NCBI RefSeq assembly: GCF_000376805.1
Contig: NZ_AQXT01000002.1
Location: forward strand, 2,480,001-2,544,000
From: Henriciella marina DSM 19595
Lineage (GTDB): Bacteria > Pseudomonadota > Alphaproteobacteria > Caulobacterales > Hyphomonadaceae
Direction of reading: 5' to 3'
Length of the DNA: 64,000 nt
Below, piece by piece: positions 38,852 through 46,071 of the stretch. Within the stretch, counting starts at the first letter, position 1. The number at the start of each line of letters is the position of its first letter. The notes below the pieces were generated by a model. It had not been told where the DNA came from. It did not search any database and was given only the letters and a program-made list of their open reading frames with translations. Position numbers and translations under genes: made by a program.

Positions 38852-38880
38852 AAATCCCCGCCAGGTGCGGGGATTTTTTA
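38852..38880 (+). terminator. Rho-independent terminator after rpmE
   Basis: A perfect 10-bp stem (AAATCCCCGC / GCGGGGATTT) with loop CAGGT and a T-run. Its last three bases are also the zapE stop codon on the minus strand, so one structure probably ends both genes. Confidence 0.9.
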
Positions 38881-40056
38881 TGCCTCGCTGTTGGGTGCGG
38901 ACTCCATGCTCTCTTGATCGGCGCTGATATCTTCTGCGCGCGGAGGTGTGCGGTGCTCGAGGGCGAGATACTCGCGTGAGCGCATCTCGAACAGACGGCT
39001 TGCCGTGCGTTGAAATTCAAAACTTCCATCGCCTGACGGGTAGAGGTCTTCCGGCTCTGCGGTAGATGTCGCGACCAGTTTGACGCGGGCTTCGTAGAGG
39101 GCGTCGATCAGCGCCACAAAGCGGGCGGCTTCGTTGCGTTTGTCTCGTGAGAGCTGAGGTATGTCGTCGAGGAGCACCGTGTGAAAGGTCGCCGCGATGG
39201 CGAGGTAATCGCGTGCGCCAAGCGGCCGGGCACAGAGCTCCGGGAAGGAAAAGCGCGCAACACCTGCGGCCTCCCGCGTGACCTGGAGCTTCCGGCCTTT
39301 CACATGCAGCACGCACTGATTGGGCCGCGCGCCGAGCGTCAGCCGGTCAAATGCCTCGTCCAGCGTCTTTTCACGTGCGATCGGATCATTGGAGACGTGC
39401 CAGACGGGGGCGGCCGTCAGCCGCTCAAGGCGGTAGTCGCGCTCGGCGGCAAGTTCGAAGATATCGCATTCGTCCTTGATGCGCTCAATGAAGGGCAGGA
39501 AGAGCTGACGGTTGAGGCCGTCCTTATAGAGCTCGTCGGGATGGCGGTTAGAGGTTGCGACGACCGTCACACGGTCCTCGAAAAGGTTTTCGAATAGGCG
39601 CCCAAGGATCATCGCATCTGCGATCTGCGAAACCTGGAACTCATCGAAGCAGAGCAGCTTGGCTTCGGACGCGATGAGCTTGGCGACAGGCGGGATCGGG
39701 TCACTGCCAGCGCCTTTGACGCGGTGGTCCGCGCGCTTGCGTTCGTCTTCACTCATTCCGCGCCAGGCATTCATCTCATCGTGCACACGCCCCATGAATT
39801 CATGAAAGTGGACGCGTTTCGCCTTCACTGGGGAAAGGTCGTGGAACAGGTCCATCAGCATGGACTTGCCGCGCCCGACGCCGCCCCAGAGGTAAAGCCC
39901 CTTTACCTTGGTTTCCTTGCGGAACAGGCCAGCTGGCTTTGCCTCGGCGAGGCGTTCGAGCACGCTGTCGAGCTTGCGGGCAGCTTCGCGCTGGGCGCTG
40001 TCCTCGGTGAGCTGGCCCGCCTCGATGCGCTTGTCGTATTCCTGCTCAACGCTCAT
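38878..40056 (-). CDS. zapE: ZapE/AFG1-family ATPase
   Basis: ZapE is a Z-ring associated ATPase. The 392-residue product has Walker A LWGGVGRGKSMLMDLF, HFHEFMGRVH, Walker B LLCFDEFQVSQIADAM and sensor-like TSNRHPDELYKDGLNRQLF. All are diagnostic of the AFG1/ZapE family. The last 35 residues are polar and disordered. It starts six bases after the rhomboid gene stop, so the two form a transcriptional pair. Confidence 0.94.
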   Translation of the reverse strand: MSVEQEYDKRIEAGQLTEDSAQREAARKLDSVLERLAEAKPAGLFRKETKVKGLYLWGGVGRGKSMLMDLFHDLSPVKAKRVHFHEFMGRVHDEMNAWRGMSEDERKRADHRVKGAGSDPIPPVAKLIASEAKLLCFDEFQVSQIADAMILGRLFENLFEDRVTVVATSNRHPDELYKDGLNRQLFLPFIERIKDECDIFELAAERDYRLERLTAAPVWHVSNDPIAREKTLDEAFDRLTLGARPNQCVLHVKGRKLQVTREAAGVARFSFPELCARPLGARDYLAIAATFHTVLLDDIPQLSRDKRNEAARFVALIDALYEARVKLVATSTAEPEDLYPSGDGSFEFQRTASRLFEMRSREYLALEHRTPPRAEDISADQESMESAPNSEA

Positions 40057-40062
40057 TCAGGA

Positions 40063-40680
40063 TCAGCCTCCACCAAGCACGCGAGCGACCTGGTCTGAAA
40101 AGATCGACAACGATCGCGGCGCCACAACGATTGTCGCGATGAGCCCCGCAATCGCGCCGCCAAGATGCGCCTCATGGCCAATGATGCGGTTCTCCCGCTG
40201 GGCCAGCACGGTGCTGATCCCGATAAAAAGGATACCGAAAACGATCGCAGGCATCGGGATGATGAAGAAAAGCAGCATCGCGAAAGGCTGGAACAGGCAG
40301 AAGGAGAGGATCATGCCCGATGTCGCCCCGGATGCACCCAATGCGCGATAGTCTGGCGCGCGGAAGTTCTCAAGCAACGCCCAGAGATTGCCGCCTAGAA
40401 GCGCAGCAAAATAGACGAAGAGGAAAGAGAGCGTGCCCAGCTGGTATTCGATGAAGCGTCCAAACTGAAAGAGGACGAACATGTTGATTAGAAGGTGGAA
40501 GACGCCGCCATGCAGGAACCCTGACGTGATCAGGCGGTGGTACTCATTCTTTTCCCGGATCGGCTCTATGTGAAAGAGGTTTGCGAGCAGGAATTTCTGA
40601 TTGAGCCAGCCATAGATGCTGGCGGCAACATTGATCGCGATCAGCGTCAGCGTGGCCGGAAAGACGGAAAGTTGGTCCAT
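40063..40680 (-). CDS. Rhomboid family intramembrane serine protease
   Basis: The 205-residue protein is polytopic (about six helices). The catalytic Ser lies in ALGASGATSGMI (about 117-125), and the catalytic His in IGHEAHLGGAIAGL near the C-terminus. The HLLINMFVLFQFG helix is also typical of the fold. The substrate is unknown. It is encoded just upstream of zapE. Confidence 0.93.
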   Translation of the reverse strand: MDQLSVFPATLTLIAINVAASIYGWLNQKFLLANLFHIEPIREKNEYHRLITSGFLHGGVFHLLINMFVLFQFGRFIEYQLGTLSFLFVYFAALLGGNLWALLENFRAPDYRALGASGATSGMILSFCLFQPFAMLLFFIIPMPAIVFGILFIGISTVLAQRENRIIGHEAHLGGAIAGLIATIVVAPRSLSIFSDQVARVLGGG

Positions 40681-40789: not shown

Positions 40790-43072
40790 TCAGGCGATGT
40801 TCTTCAGCGGGGCAATCCCTTCATCGCCTTCGGGGATGACAAGGTCTTCAAGACTGGCTGGCCGACCAAGAAGATAGCCTTGAACTTTCGCAAATCCGGC
40901 GAGCCTGACAAGCGTCAACTGTTCCTCGGTCTCGATGCCCTCGGCGACGATGTCGACGTCCAGAACATCTCCCATCCGGGACATCAGGGCGACGAGTTTC
41001 TGCGCTCTGCTGCTCTGGGCGGCTTGCGCAAAGAAGGACCGGTCGATCTTGATCCGGTCGACCGGCAGGCTTTCAAGGCGGCTGAGGGAGGAGTGACCCG
41101 TTCCGAAATCGTCTAGCGACACCGTCACCCCGCGCGCCCGTATGGAATTGAGCTGGTCCCGGGAGGCGTTCATGTCCTCGAGAATTCCGCGCTCCGTAAT
41201 CTCCAGCTCGAGTAGATCTGGTGGAAACCTGGTTTCCTCGAGGATGTCGAAAAGCGAGCCGACGAAACCATCGCTCATGATTTCAGCCGGCGATACGTTG
41301 ACGTTCAGCCTGAGGGGCCGGCCGTTTGTCTTCATCCATTGAAGCGTTTCTGTGCAGGCTCGCCGCAATGTGTACTGGCCGAGCGCGATGATCGTCCGAC
41401 TGCTTTCGGCGATGGAAATGAACTCATCGGGAGAGATGTTTCCGTAGTCAGGGTGGCTCCACCGCGCGAGAGCCTCAACGCCGCTGAGTTTGCCTGACCG
41501 GACCTCGAAGATTGGCTGATATTGAAAGTGAATCTGGCTTGAGGTGATTGCCTGGGTCAGGTCTCGCCGGATGGCAAGGCGCCGGTCGAGGCGTGTCTCC
41601 ACATCTCCGTCGCAGATCACGACACGCCCACCGCCCAGTGATTTGGCTTCGTAGACGGCGGCATCGGCACGTTCAAGCGCCCCGGCGAGGGGCGTCGTCT
41701 CACTGGTGGAGGCGATGCCGATGGAGGCCGCAAGATCGATGAGCCGGTCATCGATCTCGACAGGTCGTGATATCGCGTCAACAAACCGGGCCGCCAGCCG
41801 GTTGCCCCCCTCAGCGTCCCACCGGACTTGCAGGAGCGCACAGAATTCATCGCCGCCCAGCCTGAAGACCTCAAGGCCCGGAATATCTTCCTCCAGACCG
41901 CGGAAGCGGGCGCCAAGCTCGCACAAGGCGATGTCGCCAGCCTCATGGCCCTGTCGATCATTGATATGTTTGAAGTTGTCGAGGTCGACGCAGATGACGG
42001 CTGTCGGCTCACTGGACAGCCTGTTCTGGCCAGCTTCGATCGAGGCATTGAACGCATGACGGTTGCCAAGTCCGGTCAGCCGGTCGCGAAGGGCGAGGGC
42101 CTTCAATTTTTCTTCGGCTTCTGCTTTCTCGGTGATGTCGTGCGCGATGACCCGGTATCCGGCAAATGCGCCATCCTCATGAAACACCGGCTCGCCCGTG
42201 CATTCGACCCGGCGGCTTTGGCCTTCAAGGTTAAGGGTGGCTCTGATTTTTTCATAAGGGGTGCGTGTTTGCAGCGCCTGGTGAAATGTGTCGGCCTGCG
42301 CTTCCCAGTCGAAGAGAATCGTTCGCCAGTGCCGGCCAACCGCATCGCCAGTTCCGAAGAAGTCGGTGACCGTGCCATGTTCATCGATTTCGAGATGCCA
42401 GTCGGAGGCGAGCGTTGCATAGTGCGCAAAGCGCTGCTTCAGGATCGTTTCCTGGCGGGCGGCCTTGTTGAGCGAGGCGTAGGCGGCCCCTGTGATCTTT
42501 CTCGGCAAGATAGCGGCAAGCGCGCTGGCCATCGCCACGATGCTGAGCGCGATGGCCGTCAGGAAGGTCTCGTCGCGACCATAAAAAATGATCGCCGCTT
42601 CCGGATTGGTGGAGAGATAGATGTTGAAGAACGCGATCAGTCCGACCGTATAGAGTATCGCCACCCATACAGGCGCGAGAAGCCCCCACATGAATGCGCT
42701 AAGCCCCAGCAGCATCAACCCAATCCAGGCGGCTGCGCCTTGCAGCATGATCTCCGCAACAAGATTGACCGGTACGCATATGCAGATCAGCAGGATCTGG
42801 AGTGTCGGCGCCTGCCGCCTGAAGGCGAGCACAATTGCGAGGCAAAGCACAAGCGCCGTCGCGGCATCGACAATCGCCATCACTCCAAGCGGATAATTGC
42901 CCGCCGCGATCATGGATGCGATGACGAATCCCACTGTGAGGAGAATGGCGCCCGCGCTGAATATGACGAGATATTGGTGGACGCGCGCCTGATCCATCGT
43001 GCGCAGCGACCAGCTGGATGGCCAGAAGGCGGCACTGGTCTTCGCTCCGTAGCTATCGCCCTGATTGCTCAT
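40790..43072 (-). CDS. Membrane GGDEF-EAL protein with PAS domain
   Basis: From ATG 43072 (GAGGAAGAGGG upstream) the protein is 760 residues. It contains five to six membrane helices (about 33-200), a PAS domain (about 220-330), GGDEF (about 335-500) and EAL (about 510-755). The diguanylate cyclase site FRLGGDEFCALL is intact, and no RxxD inhibitory site is seen before it. The EAL site SGVEALARWSHP, the loop SLDDFGTGHSSLS and the last motif GYLLGRPAS are also intact, so both synthesis and breakdown of c-di-GMP are possible. The receiver gene lies upstream on the same strand. Confidence 0.92.
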   Translation of the reverse strand: MSNQGDSYGAKTSAAFWPSSWSLRTMDQARVHQYLVIFSAGAILLTVGFVIASMIAAGNYPLGVMAIVDAATALVLCLAIVLAFRRQAPTLQILLICICVPVNLVAEIMLQGAAAWIGLMLLGLSAFMWGLLAPVWVAILYTVGLIAFFNIYLSTNPEAAIIFYGRDETFLTAIALSIVAMASALAAILPRKITGAAYASLNKAARQETILKQRFAHYATLASDWHLEIDEHGTVTDFFGTGDAVGRHWRTILFDWEAQADTFHQALQTRTPYEKIRATLNLEGQSRRVECTGEPVFHEDGAFAGYRVIAHDITEKAEAEEKLKALALRDRLTGLGNRHAFNASIEAGQNRLSSEPTAVICVDLDNFKHINDRQGHEAGDIALCELGARFRGLEEDIPGLEVFRLGGDEFCALLQVRWDAEGGNRLAARFVDAISRPVEIDDRLIDLAASIGIASTSETTPLAGALERADAAVYEAKSLGGGRVVICDGDVETRLDRRLAIRRDLTQAITSSQIHFQYQPIFEVRSGKLSGVEALARWSHPDYGNISPDEFISIAESSRTIIALGQYTLRRACTETLQWMKTNGRPLRLNVNVSPAEIMSDGFVGSLFDILEETRFPPDLLELEITERGILEDMNASRDQLNSIRARGVTVSLDDFGTGHSSLSRLESLPVDRIKIDRSFFAQAAQSSRAQKLVALMSRMGDVLDVDIVAEGIETEEQLTLVRLAGFAKVQGYLLGRPASLEDLVIPEGDEGIAPLKNIA

Positions 43073-43225
43073 AGACACCCTCTTCCTCAAGTACAGATTA
43101 AGCAGAGGATAGTTTCGGGTCTGACCAAGAACGGCTAATAAATTCCGGCTATCGCGGAAAGCTTTGATTAAGTCTTGTGGCATTGCCAGTTTCTGGCGCA
43201 AAAGCTTGTGCAGTGCCGCTGTCGA

Positions 43226-43663
43226 TCAGGCTGCCGCGATGCGGCCTGTCTGTTCCGGCGCAGGCATCTGCTCAAAGAAGAAGTCGAGCATGGCCTCTGG
43301 GCGCTGAATGAAGCGGTTATAGGGCAGGCTCGCCTTGAAGACCGGGGTCTTCGCAATATTGCAGCCGCACCGAAGCGCGGTGCCGACGATTGAATCGCGG
43401 TCTGGGTTGATCGAGGCAACGGCGATCCGGTGTGAGCCCATATTTGCAAGGCGCGCAATCGTCATGTCGCCATCATAGCTGTCGGGCAGGGTCAGTTCCG
43501 TGATCACCAGATCGAAGCGTTCAAGGCGCAGACGCCGCTCGGCTTCCATCAGCGTGTGGGCCAGGACCAGGTCGACCTGCACGCGCGCCCGCGCTGCCTT
43601 GTCGGCAGCAACCGCCAGCATGTCGCGCACCGGCTCATGATCCTCGATCCACAGTACTTTCAT
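43226..43663 (-). CDS. Receiver-like protein with Glu at the phosphoacceptor
   Basis: The 145-residue protein has a single response-regulator receiver fold. The acidic pocket is LWIEDHEPVRD (Glu7-Asp8). The position of the phosphoacceptor Asp is Glu56 in LVITELTLPDSYDG. The conserved Lys is in NIAKTPVF. Glu at this site usually mimics the phosphorylated form, or removes phosphorelay. No output domain follows, but a Phe-rich C-terminal tail is present. The gene lies 153 bases upstream of the GGDEF-EAL gene on the same strand. Confidence 0.8.
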   Translation of the reverse strand: MKVLWIEDHEPVRDMLAVAADKAARARVQVDLVLAHTLMEAERRLRLERFDLVITELTLPDSYDGDMTIARLANMGSHRIAVASINPDRDSIVGTALRCGCNIAKTPVFKASLPYNRFIQRPEAMLDFFFEQMPAPEQTGRIAAA

Positions 43664-43894: not shown

Positions 43895-44791
43895 ATGCCT
43901 GATGGCACTGTAAACGAAGCAAAAAACAGGTCGGCCTTTCTTCAGGATATCGAGGAGAGCGACCAGCACATCGTTGACACGCTCATTGCCGAGCGCTGTC
44001 CAAGCTTTGTCGCCCACTGGTCCTGGCCGGTTACACGGCGCGTGCTTTACGCGCTGCTAGGCTATGGCAAGGCGCGCAACATGGCCGATACGCTGATGAC
44101 GCTGAACGGGCGTCAGTCGTTCGAGTATCTGTCGGACGTCCTCAAAGTCGAGCTGAGCATCGCCCATCTGGGCAGGCTTCCCGAAAAGGGCCGCGTCGTC
44201 GTCGCTGCCAACCATCCGACAGGACTGGCAGACGGGGTGGCCGTCTGGGATGCGCTGATCAAGCGTCGGCAGGATGTTGTCTTTTTCGCCAACGCCGATG
44301 CCATTCGGGTCAATCCGCAATTCCAGGATGTGATTATCCCAATTGAGTGGGTGCCCGGAAAGCGTAGCCCGGCCAAAACACGCGAAACTCTGAAACGCGC
44401 GTCGGAGGCGTTCGAGGCGGAAAAGTGCGTCGTGATTTTTCCGTCTGGAAAGCTTGCGAAGAAAGTTGAGGGCACCCTGACCGAGCAGGCCTGGTTCTCG
44501 ACAGTGGTCAGCCTGGCGCGCAAGCAGGGCGCACCCATCGTGCCGCTCCATGTCGGGGCAGAAAACTCAAAGCTCTTCTACAGGCTCAGCCAGATAAATG
44601 GCGAGCTGCGCGACATTACGCTGTTCAATGAACTGCTTAACAAGACGCACGCCAAATTCGAGCTGACGTTTGGACAGCCAATCCCGACCTATTCGCTTCT
44701 TGGGGATGCGGCAGAGGTGACAGAGGCCTTGAAGGACCACGTTGCCTATACATTGGCAGACGATCCCGGCGCTTTATTTGGAACTGGCTAG
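43895..44791 (+). CDS. Lysophospholipid acyltransferase-like protein
   Basis: The 298-residue protein resembles the hemolysin-like/OlsA branch of the PlsC superfamily. VAANHPTGLADGVAVWDAL has the NH-x-D type active site with a His and a downstream Asp. VVIFPSGKLAKK replaces the usual FPEGTR motif, and PIVPLHVGAENSKL is another family block. It has no clear membrane helix beyond a short hydrophobic segment near residue 50. GGGAG precedes the start. It may acylate a lipid such as an ornithine lipid, which is inference. The 231-base gap upstream holds no gene. Confidence 0.8.
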   Translation: MPDGTVNEAKNRSAFLQDIEESDQHIVDTLIAERCPSFVAHWSWPVTRRVLYALLGYGKARNMADTLMTLNGRQSFEYLSDVLKVELSIAHLGRLPEKGRVVVAANHPTGLADGVAVWDALIKRRQDVVFFANADAIRVNPQFQDVIIPIEWVPGKRSPAKTRETLKRASEAFEAEKCVVIFPSGKLAKKVEGTLTEQAWFSTVVSLARKQGAPIVPLHVGAENSKLFYRLSQINGELRDITLFNELLNKTHAKFELTFGQPIPTYSLLGDAAEVTEALKDHVAYTLADDPGALFGTG

Positions 44792-44865: not shown

Positions 44866-46071
44866 ATGGAAGAATTCTGGAACAATACAGTCGCGCAAGT
44901 GCAGGATTACGGACCGAATATACTATTCGCGATTCTTATCCTCATTGGCGCATACTTCGTCGCGCTTCTGCTGAAGTGGGCGATTTCGACAGCCGTCAAC
45001 AAGACCGGTTTCGGCAAGGGCGAAACCGATCCGGACGGCAAGGCAACCAAGTCGCTAGGCGACAGTCTCGGCATAGCGGCCTTCTGGATCGTGATGCTGA
45101 TCGGCGTCATCCAGGCGCTGACGCGGCTCTCTCTGACGCAGGTCGTCCAGCCGCTGAATGGCATGCTCAGCGATGTGCTCAATTATCTGCCGAACATCTT
45201 CGGCGCCATCCTGATCTTTATTGTCTTCATGATCGTCGCAAACGTCGTTCAGAAGACGGCCAAGGCGGTCTTCGTCTTTGCTGATCCGGTGCCAGCGCGC
45301 CTCGGCCTGACCAGCGGCCCGGTCAATATTTCCGGTGTCACCGCAACCGTACTTGCCGCGATCATTGGCATTTTCGGTGCGATTGCCGCTTTCGACGTTC
45401 TTGCAATCGAAGCGATTTCCGAGCCAGCGACAGAGATGCTGAATGAGATTATCGGGGCGATCCCGAACATCCTCATCGCGGCGATCCTGCTGACGGTCTT
45501 CGTGCTGATCGGGCGGTTCGTGCACAATCTCATCCTGCGCACGCTGCCGAATTTCGGTGTCGATTCCGCTGTGGCCGAGCTTGGTATCCTGAAGGGTGCC
45601 GATTCCGGCATGACCGCGTCCAATGTGATCGCAAAGGGTGCGCTGTTCTTCATCGTGCTGCTTGGTCTGGTACAGGCCATGCGTGCGCTTGAGTTCGAAG
45701 TGCTGACTAATGCGACCTACACGGTGCTCGATCTTGCCGCCTCGATCGTCTTCGGTGCAATCATCATCTTTGCTGGCGTGGTCATCGCCCGCATCGTGAG
45801 TGGTGCCATGGCATCGACAGGTGATGGCGCGAGCGACACGGTGGCCAAGGTCACGAAATGGGCGATCATCATCCTCGCAACCATCCTTGGTATTTCGCGG
45901 ATGGAGCTGGACCCGACCGGCGGTGAGTTTGTGCTCAATGTCGCCGAAATGCTTGTGATGGGCGCGGCTGTTGGCCTCGCCATCGCAGTCGGCATCGGCT
46001 TTGGCTGGGGTGGCCGCGACTGGTTCGCCAAGCAGCTTGAGAAGTGGAGCCGCAAGGACGGCACGCCGTAA
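44866..46071 (+). CDS. Mechanosensitive-channel-like membrane protein (CmpX type)
   Basis: From ATG 44866 (AAAGGG upstream) this 401-residue protein has around ten hydrophobic segments. Two related conserved-helix repeats of the PF05552 type can be seen: NYLPNIFGAILIFIVFMIVAN (first part: NYLPNIFGAILIF) and AIPNILIAAILLTVFVLIGRF. The pattern and the glycine-rich end GLAIAVGIGFGWGGRDWF resemble small MscS-related CmpX proteins, but there is no full MscS domain. It would sit in the inner membrane and may respond to osmotic or surface stress. Confidence 0.8.
   Translation: MEEFWNNTVAQVQDYGPNILFAILILIGAYFVALLLKWAISTAVNKTGFGKGETDPDGKATKSLGDSLGIAAFWIVMLIGVIQALTRLSLTQVVQPLNGMLSDVLNYLPNIFGAILIFIVFMIVANVVQKTAKAVFVFADPVPARLGLTSGPVNISGVTATVLAAIIGIFGAIAAFDVLAIEAISEPATEMLNEIIGAIPNILIAAILLTVFVLIGRFVHNLILRTLPNFGVDSAVAELGILKGADSGMTASNVIAKGALFFIVLLGLVQAMRALEFEVLTNATYTVLDLAASIVFGAIIIFAGVVIARIVSGAMASTGDGASDTVAKVTKWAIIILATILGISRMELDPTGGEFVLNVAEMLVMGAAVGLAIAVGIGFGWGGRDWFAKQLEKWSRKDGTP

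Follow-up and report, generated by a model that had tools for sequence, protein, structure and literature searches.

How does a receiver domain work when a glutamate stands at the site of its phosphoacceptor aspartate? The question is raised by a stand-alone receiver gene in a stretch of Henriciella marina DNA, the whole 64,000 nucleotides of which are called the window here; its features are collected in Table 1. An earlier note had suggested that the protein could be a constitutively active or phosphorylation-independent partner of the GGDEF-EAL enzyme encoded downstream. The comparison of orthologues shows a real, clade-fixed Asp-to-Glu conversion; its product is most likely a phosphate-independent binding protein controlled by its amount.

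Table 1. Positions of the receiver gene, its sites, and its neighbours in the window
Feature	Position	Strand	Remark
AFG1-like ATPase (ZapE type) gene, after the rhomboid gene	38878..40056	-	
Rhomboid gene	40063..40680	-	Next downstream neighbour in 50/87 other loci
PAS-GGDEF-EAL protein	40790..43072	-	Lineage-specific neighbour; adjoins the receiver here and in 6/87 other loci
Stand-alone receiver, 145 aa, single copy	43226..43663	-	Throughout most of Hyphomonadaceae; AlphaFold2 model and PDB receiver fold matches
C-terminal Ala-Ala, likely ClpXP-type degron	43229..43234	-	Tail residues 138-145
Pocket Lys110	43334..43336	-	Invariant in 95/95 rows
Codon 56, GAA, Glu replacing the phosphoacceptor Asp	43496..43498	-	TTC on the + strand
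Conserved 26-nt element GCAAGGTTCGCTTTACCAAGCTTAAA	43744..43769	-	106 nt before the receiver start, divergent intergenic region
Divergent acyltransferase gene (PF19576/PF01553)	43895..44791	+	Most constant neighbour; Pfam

Receiver fold and phosphoacceptor site

The sole Pfam match of the protein at E ≤ 0.1 is Response_reg (PF00072), which bears out the earlier statement that it has no output domain; the score of 24.6 bits is under the curated Pfam cut-off of 30.2. The AlphaFold2 model (mean pLDDT 92.4, pTM 0.86) shows the five-fold β/α receiver fold, and its top PDB match by VIA-align is 9of4_A (Z 14.5, rmsd 2.6, 118 positions aligned). ComE D58E (4mld), a solved Asp-to-Glu receiver, is found at rank 46 among the Foldseek matches to the model; because the match lists mix active and inactive structures, the signalling state is not readable from them. 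In alignments with solved receivers, position 56 falls on their phosphoacceptor Asp and is occupied by Glu (GAA), and the acidic pocket and the Lys are retained (E7, D8, S84, and K110 are all present), both as the earlier note had read them. With Glu at this site, the protein has the fold of a receiver but not its chemistry, and it is strongly implied to be non-phosphorylatable.

A receiver fold that lacks the phosphoacceptor Asp places the protein with the Asp-less receivers, or pseudo-receivers, in which Glu most often takes the place of the Asp (26%) and can serve as a phosphomimetic, according to the available text of two papers (PMC4395418, PMC12632262). In the same partial texts, Asp-to-Glu alone is stated often to fail to activate a receiver, and the residue at the Asp site of ChxR is not the cause of its activity (PMC4395418), whereas the accessible part of a 2025 perspective calls Glu as a built-in phosphomimetic an attractive hypothesis and regards the mechanisms that activate or inactivate bacterial pseudo-receivers as still a mystery (PMC12632262). 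Lineage-wide Glu in place of the Asp has precedents, as far as that perspective was available, in the fungal Rim15p receivers and the plant pseudo-response regulators (PMC12632262), but these are eukaryotic, carry other domains, and are not stand-alone bacterial receivers. The window protein differs from Asp-less receivers and pseudo-receivers in that it keeps the acidic pair and the Lys and has no output domain. In addition, orthologues that retain the Asp are known, so that, unlike in those groups, the change is assignable to a single branch. To our knowledge, close Asp-bearing orthologues for comparison with pseudo-receivers are seldom at hand.

One Asp-to-Glu change in a Henriciella clade

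The genus search yielded one receiver match per genome in 28 of 29 genomes, and with a single match in each, no additional copy bearing Asp was detected there. Across the family, the receiver was matched in 99 of 105 genomes (86 of 89 among good assemblies); three of the six family genomes without a match are less than 90% complete, and the receiver may be truly absent from G029 (97% complete, 520 contigs), G093, and G100 (99%). In a sample of 249 genomes of the order, matches at E ≤ 1e-15 came from 50, every one of them a member of Hyphomonadaceae. At E ≤ 1e-5, distant matches (1.4e-11 to 8.8e-6) were obtained in 21 of 150 genomes, all 21 outside Hyphomonadaceae; they are treated as a separate group, and the 18 of these loci that were inspected keep the Asp and have no acyltransferase, rhomboid, AFG1-type, or SecA neighbours. 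Loci L240-L257, from other genomes of the order, have stand-alone receivers of similar size, of the VLHVEDDFADAM...LDKN type, which are distant relatives in other surroundings.

Residue 56 was read in 95 distinct orthologous coding sequences of Hyphomonadaceae. By handle, this set is without 11 matched genomes (G039, G043, G051, G054 with a weak match of 7.8e-4, G059, G068, G076, G097, G101, G102, and G104); seven extra distinct coding sequences from named contigs were added (L150, L157, L159, L168, L177, L188, and L195), which may derive from those 11 genomes. Glu is found in 14 sequences (GAA in 11, GAG in 3) and Asp in 81 (GAC in 54, GAT in 27). Besides the window, the Glu rows come from 13 further Henriciella genomes, with named loci that include H. 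marina, H. algicola, H. barbarensis, H. mobilis, H. aquimarina, and H. pelagia; the remaining 14 matched genomes of the genus have Asp, as do Hyphomonas, Ponticaulis, and Hirschia with their relatives. By count, Asp is thus the state of most orthologues (81/95), but the meaning that the earlier note had attached to such a majority, a sequence error or a local change, fails because Glu is common to a 14-member clade.

In the maximum-likelihood receiver tree, the 14 Glu rows fall on one side of one branch (100/100, bootstrap/SH-aLRT), and one Asp/Glu change accounts for them, versus a mean of 13.3 after shuffling; a single change is still obtained when columns 55, 56, 63, 107, 115, and 125 are omitted (SH-aLRT 98). 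The independent acyltransferase tree (40 loci, unrooted) also unites the Glu genomes in one clade (97.7/99, SH-aLRT/bootstrap) and sets it beside Hyphomonas, not beside the Asp-bearing Henriciella. Asp56 was therefore changed to Glu once, in a single-copy gene of one Henriciella clade, and Glu has been retained since.

The pocket is kept almost without exception. E7 and K110 are invariant in 95/95 sequences, D8 is present in 94/95, and Ser or Thr occupies position 84 in 95/95. The one deviating sequence in the acidic pair, L059:5948-6382 (Hyphomonas sp. TMED17 in L170), is an Asp56 member with Gly8 and the longest end branch, possibly a second route away from phosphorylation. Six residues are exclusive to the Glu clade (14/14 rows, versus 0/81 of the others): T55, E56, Y63, P107, Y115, and M125, where all 81 Asp rows have Ala at 107 and Phe at 125. 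Position 107, three residues before Lys110, corresponds to Tyr106 in CheY. Besides E56, the clade-exclusive residues show no significant clustering at the pocket (2 of 5, P 0.27).

Loss of the Asp, taken alone, would speak for a receiver that is losing its function or for an error in the sequence. We reject this explanation and give it a negligible probability, given that Glu occurs in 14 genomes with two codons and that constraint is kept, with 30 positions invariant across all 95 rows. The crown ratio of receiver to acyltransferase branch lengths is 0.82 in the Glu clade, 0.66 in the Asp-bearing Henriciella, and 0.85 in the whole tree, so the receiver is about as constrained after the change as before; between the window and its close relative L040, receiver and SecA are both 93% identical. 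In the receiver tree, the Glu clade has a long stem (0.37, versus 0.13 for the acyltransferase), but so do the Asp-bearing Henriciella (0.31 versus 0.12), and no Glu-specific burst of rate is claimed.

A more serious alternative is that the family was never driven by phosphorylation and binds its partner in any state, in the manner of the stand-alone receivers Osp and FixT, which would make Glu56 a conservative swap that is tolerated and leaves function unaffected. In 22/22 aligned rows, Lys110 is not followed by Pro, and the family may therefore make no use of the canonical switch; the Ala of all Asp rows at the CheY Tyr106 site points in the same direction. Osp and FixT are, moreover, reported to inhibit kinases unphosphorylated in the text available to us (PMC9430884). 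However, these two proteins have lost the acidic pair, whereas the present family retains E7, D8, D56, S84, and K110 nearly throughout, and the presence of Asp56 in 81/81 rows outside one clade argues that it matters there. We hold this alternative to be possible but rather doubtful. Clade-fixed Glu56 together with an otherwise kept pocket makes a phosphorylation-independent, possibly phosphomimetic receiver a fair reading.

The GGDEF-EAL gene and other neighbours

The partnership with the enzyme, the other half of the earlier proposal, did not hold. As described earlier, the GGDEF-EAL gene is located downstream on the same strand as the receiver gene, with its ATG at 43072 and a gap of 153 bases; its GGDEF and EAL-type motifs are kept (by eye), and its scores are far above the Pfam cut-offs. 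This arrangement, shared by seven genomes (the window and L040-L045), would suit a receiver that serves as the dedicated, constitutively active partner of the enzyme. These seven are, however, only half of the 14 Glu genomes; in them the enzyme gene sits between the receiver and rhomboid genes, whereas in the other seven the rhomboid gene directly adjoins the receiver. With the enzyme missing from the site in 7/14 Glu genomes, Glu56 neither needs nor tracks it, and the partnership is rejected as the reason for Glu56. One of the seven genomes without the enzyme at the site has a relative of its N-terminal part elsewhere; in the genus, this part is found (E ≤ 1e-8) in 8 of 29 genomes, in one of them at another place. 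Other genes also take the downstream place, such as the rhomboid gene (Table 1) or serC/serA-like genes, and identity between the window and L040 is about 93% for the receiver but 67% for the enzyme. We therefore consider the dedicated partnership very improbable.

In the acyltransferase tree, the seven enzyme-bearing genomes form a clade inside the Glu clade (93.9/97), so that, on the simplest reading, the enzyme entered the locus after Glu56 had arisen; the link between the two genes would then be positional. Among the seven enzyme-bearing genomes, the 153-base gap shows hardly any conservation. A promoter scan found no sigma-70-like site within it, and it contains one weak terminator-like hairpin of 5 pairs (43159-43143, - strand); over the whole window, there are 8 terminator-like sites, versus 2.5 in shuffles. 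The enzyme itself diverges faster than its neighbours, the copies of L040-L045 being 67-68% identical to that of the window, versus 80-96% for the neighbours.

Neighbours were counted at 87 loci, the window itself excluded. The acyltransferase gene is divergent and within 600 bp of the receiver in 83 of them, and the downstream neighbours vary across the family; at the five Asp-bearing Henriciella loci (of 14) that were inspected by eye, serC/serA-like genes come next, three times with other open reading frames in between. At 44866-46068, the window encodes a protein with three transmembrane repeats of a mechanosensitive channel (PF05552), its sole Pfam match at E ≤ 0.001.

Upstream element, Ala-Ala tail, and possible mode of action

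The element upstream of the receiver gene, with a TTTAC core, is found at -97 to -117 in 71 of 95 upstream regions, including 14/14 of the Glu clade. A region counts when it has at most 9 substitutions over the 26 positions, and 69 of the 71 stay at or below 7; of 1,420 shuffled versions of these regions, 0.6% come within 9 and none within 7. The 24 regions without the element at that place are 22 of the Ponticaulis-Hirschia side plus L066 and L067. The element, in the divergent intergenic region, may have a promoter role. The pattern CGCTTTACCAAGC has one exact copy and two one-mismatch places in the genome, versus nine for the reversed control pattern, and no regulon is thus readable from it. 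CtrA of H. neptunium binds TTAA-N7-TTAAC according to the available part of a study (PMC7200025); the closest reading of the element in the window is TTTA-N7-TAAA, and we therefore claim no CtrA box.

At the other end of the gene, the protein terminates in Ala-Ala, as do 82 of 95 family proteins and 14/14 in the Glu clade. Nearby open reading frames of at least 200 codons end in this way in 0/48 (window), 1/100, 0/46, and 11/463 cases (0-2.4%), counts that are not independent, as the loci share genes, and that may include the receiver frame read from stop to stop. Residues 138-145 are the sole stretch of the model with pLDDT below 50. In ssrA and CtrA, an Ala-Ala end is known to serve as a ClpXP signal, and on a flexible tail it makes proteolytic control a natural guess; the tail is likely a ClpXP-type degron, although such an ending is no proof of degradation. 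Being common to most Asp rows, the tail is older than the switch at residue 56 and no marker of it.

These features can be joined into a mechanism. As a stand-alone receiver, the protein would act through a partner protein that it binds, in a role such as kinase modulator or adaptor. The ancestor and most living relatives would be switchable by phosphate on Asp56. Asp56 became Glu once, on the stem of a single Henriciella clade, and T55, Y63, P107, Y115, and M125 fall on this stem as well; the product would no longer enter normal phosphotransfer. Glu56 would face the retained S/T84 and K110, and the protein would most likely be held in a phosphorylated-like, constitutively binding state, and we infer that it may be permanently on. 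Its activity would then be set by its amount, through synthesis from the conserved divergent promoter region and removal by ClpXP via the Ala-Ala degron. In its general form (an ancestor switched by phosphate, and in the Glu clade a protein-binding receiver locked without phosphate and set by synthesis and proteolysis), we give this account an even chance. The more specific version is unlikely as a whole, though worth stating: Glu56, stabilised by the five co-substitutions, including one at a coupling site near Lys110, would have made the receiver permanently on-like, and control would have moved from a kinase to abundance, by way of the divergent promoter element and of ClpXP acting on the tail.

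If true, this would be a natural swap of phospho-signalling for proteolytic timing, placed on one branch. The locus offers a natural test of whether a one-letter change can lock a protein switch, in that its Asp-bearing and Glu-bearing versions are closely related orthologues of a single-copy gene with the same divergent neighbour and an otherwise identical pocket. An allele swap would be a direct test of whether Glu stands in for phosphate, of which co-substitutions it requires, and of whether control is exerted by proteolysis.

Stand-alone receivers of alphaproteobacteria can act unphosphorylated, as the partial texts on Osp and FixT indicate (PMC9430884, PMC7078487). Osp of Rhodobacter sphaeroides is likewise a stand-alone receiver-like protein that works unphosphorylated (D51N is functional) and whose level is also under complex control, but it has the Asp and is without the acidic pair and Lys, as far as its description was available (PMC9430884). 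The window receiver keeps both, and identity with Osp is rejected on this ground; the same source, in the part available, reports Osp in no alphaproteobacteria outside Rhodobacterales (PMC9430884). FixT of Caulobacter and Sinorhizobium, again from partial texts (PMC7078487, PMC9430884), is similarly stand-alone, works unphosphorylated, and is cleared by proteolysis; it has an Fe-S cluster with a four-Cys motif, depends on Lon, and lacks the acidic pair, whereas the window protein has two Cys and the Ala-Ala end. Among the papers listed for Henriciella, Hyphomonadaceae, and Hyphomonas neptunium, judged by titles and abstract beginnings, we recognised none as concerning this protein. CpdR is another small stand-alone alphaproteobacterial receiver, linked to ClpXP; identity with it is rejected because the window protein scores 17.1 against an NCBIfam NF046022 cut-off of 180. 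A CpdR that does exceed this cut-off (181.7 bits) is located elsewhere in the genome, at G000:C2:2730347.
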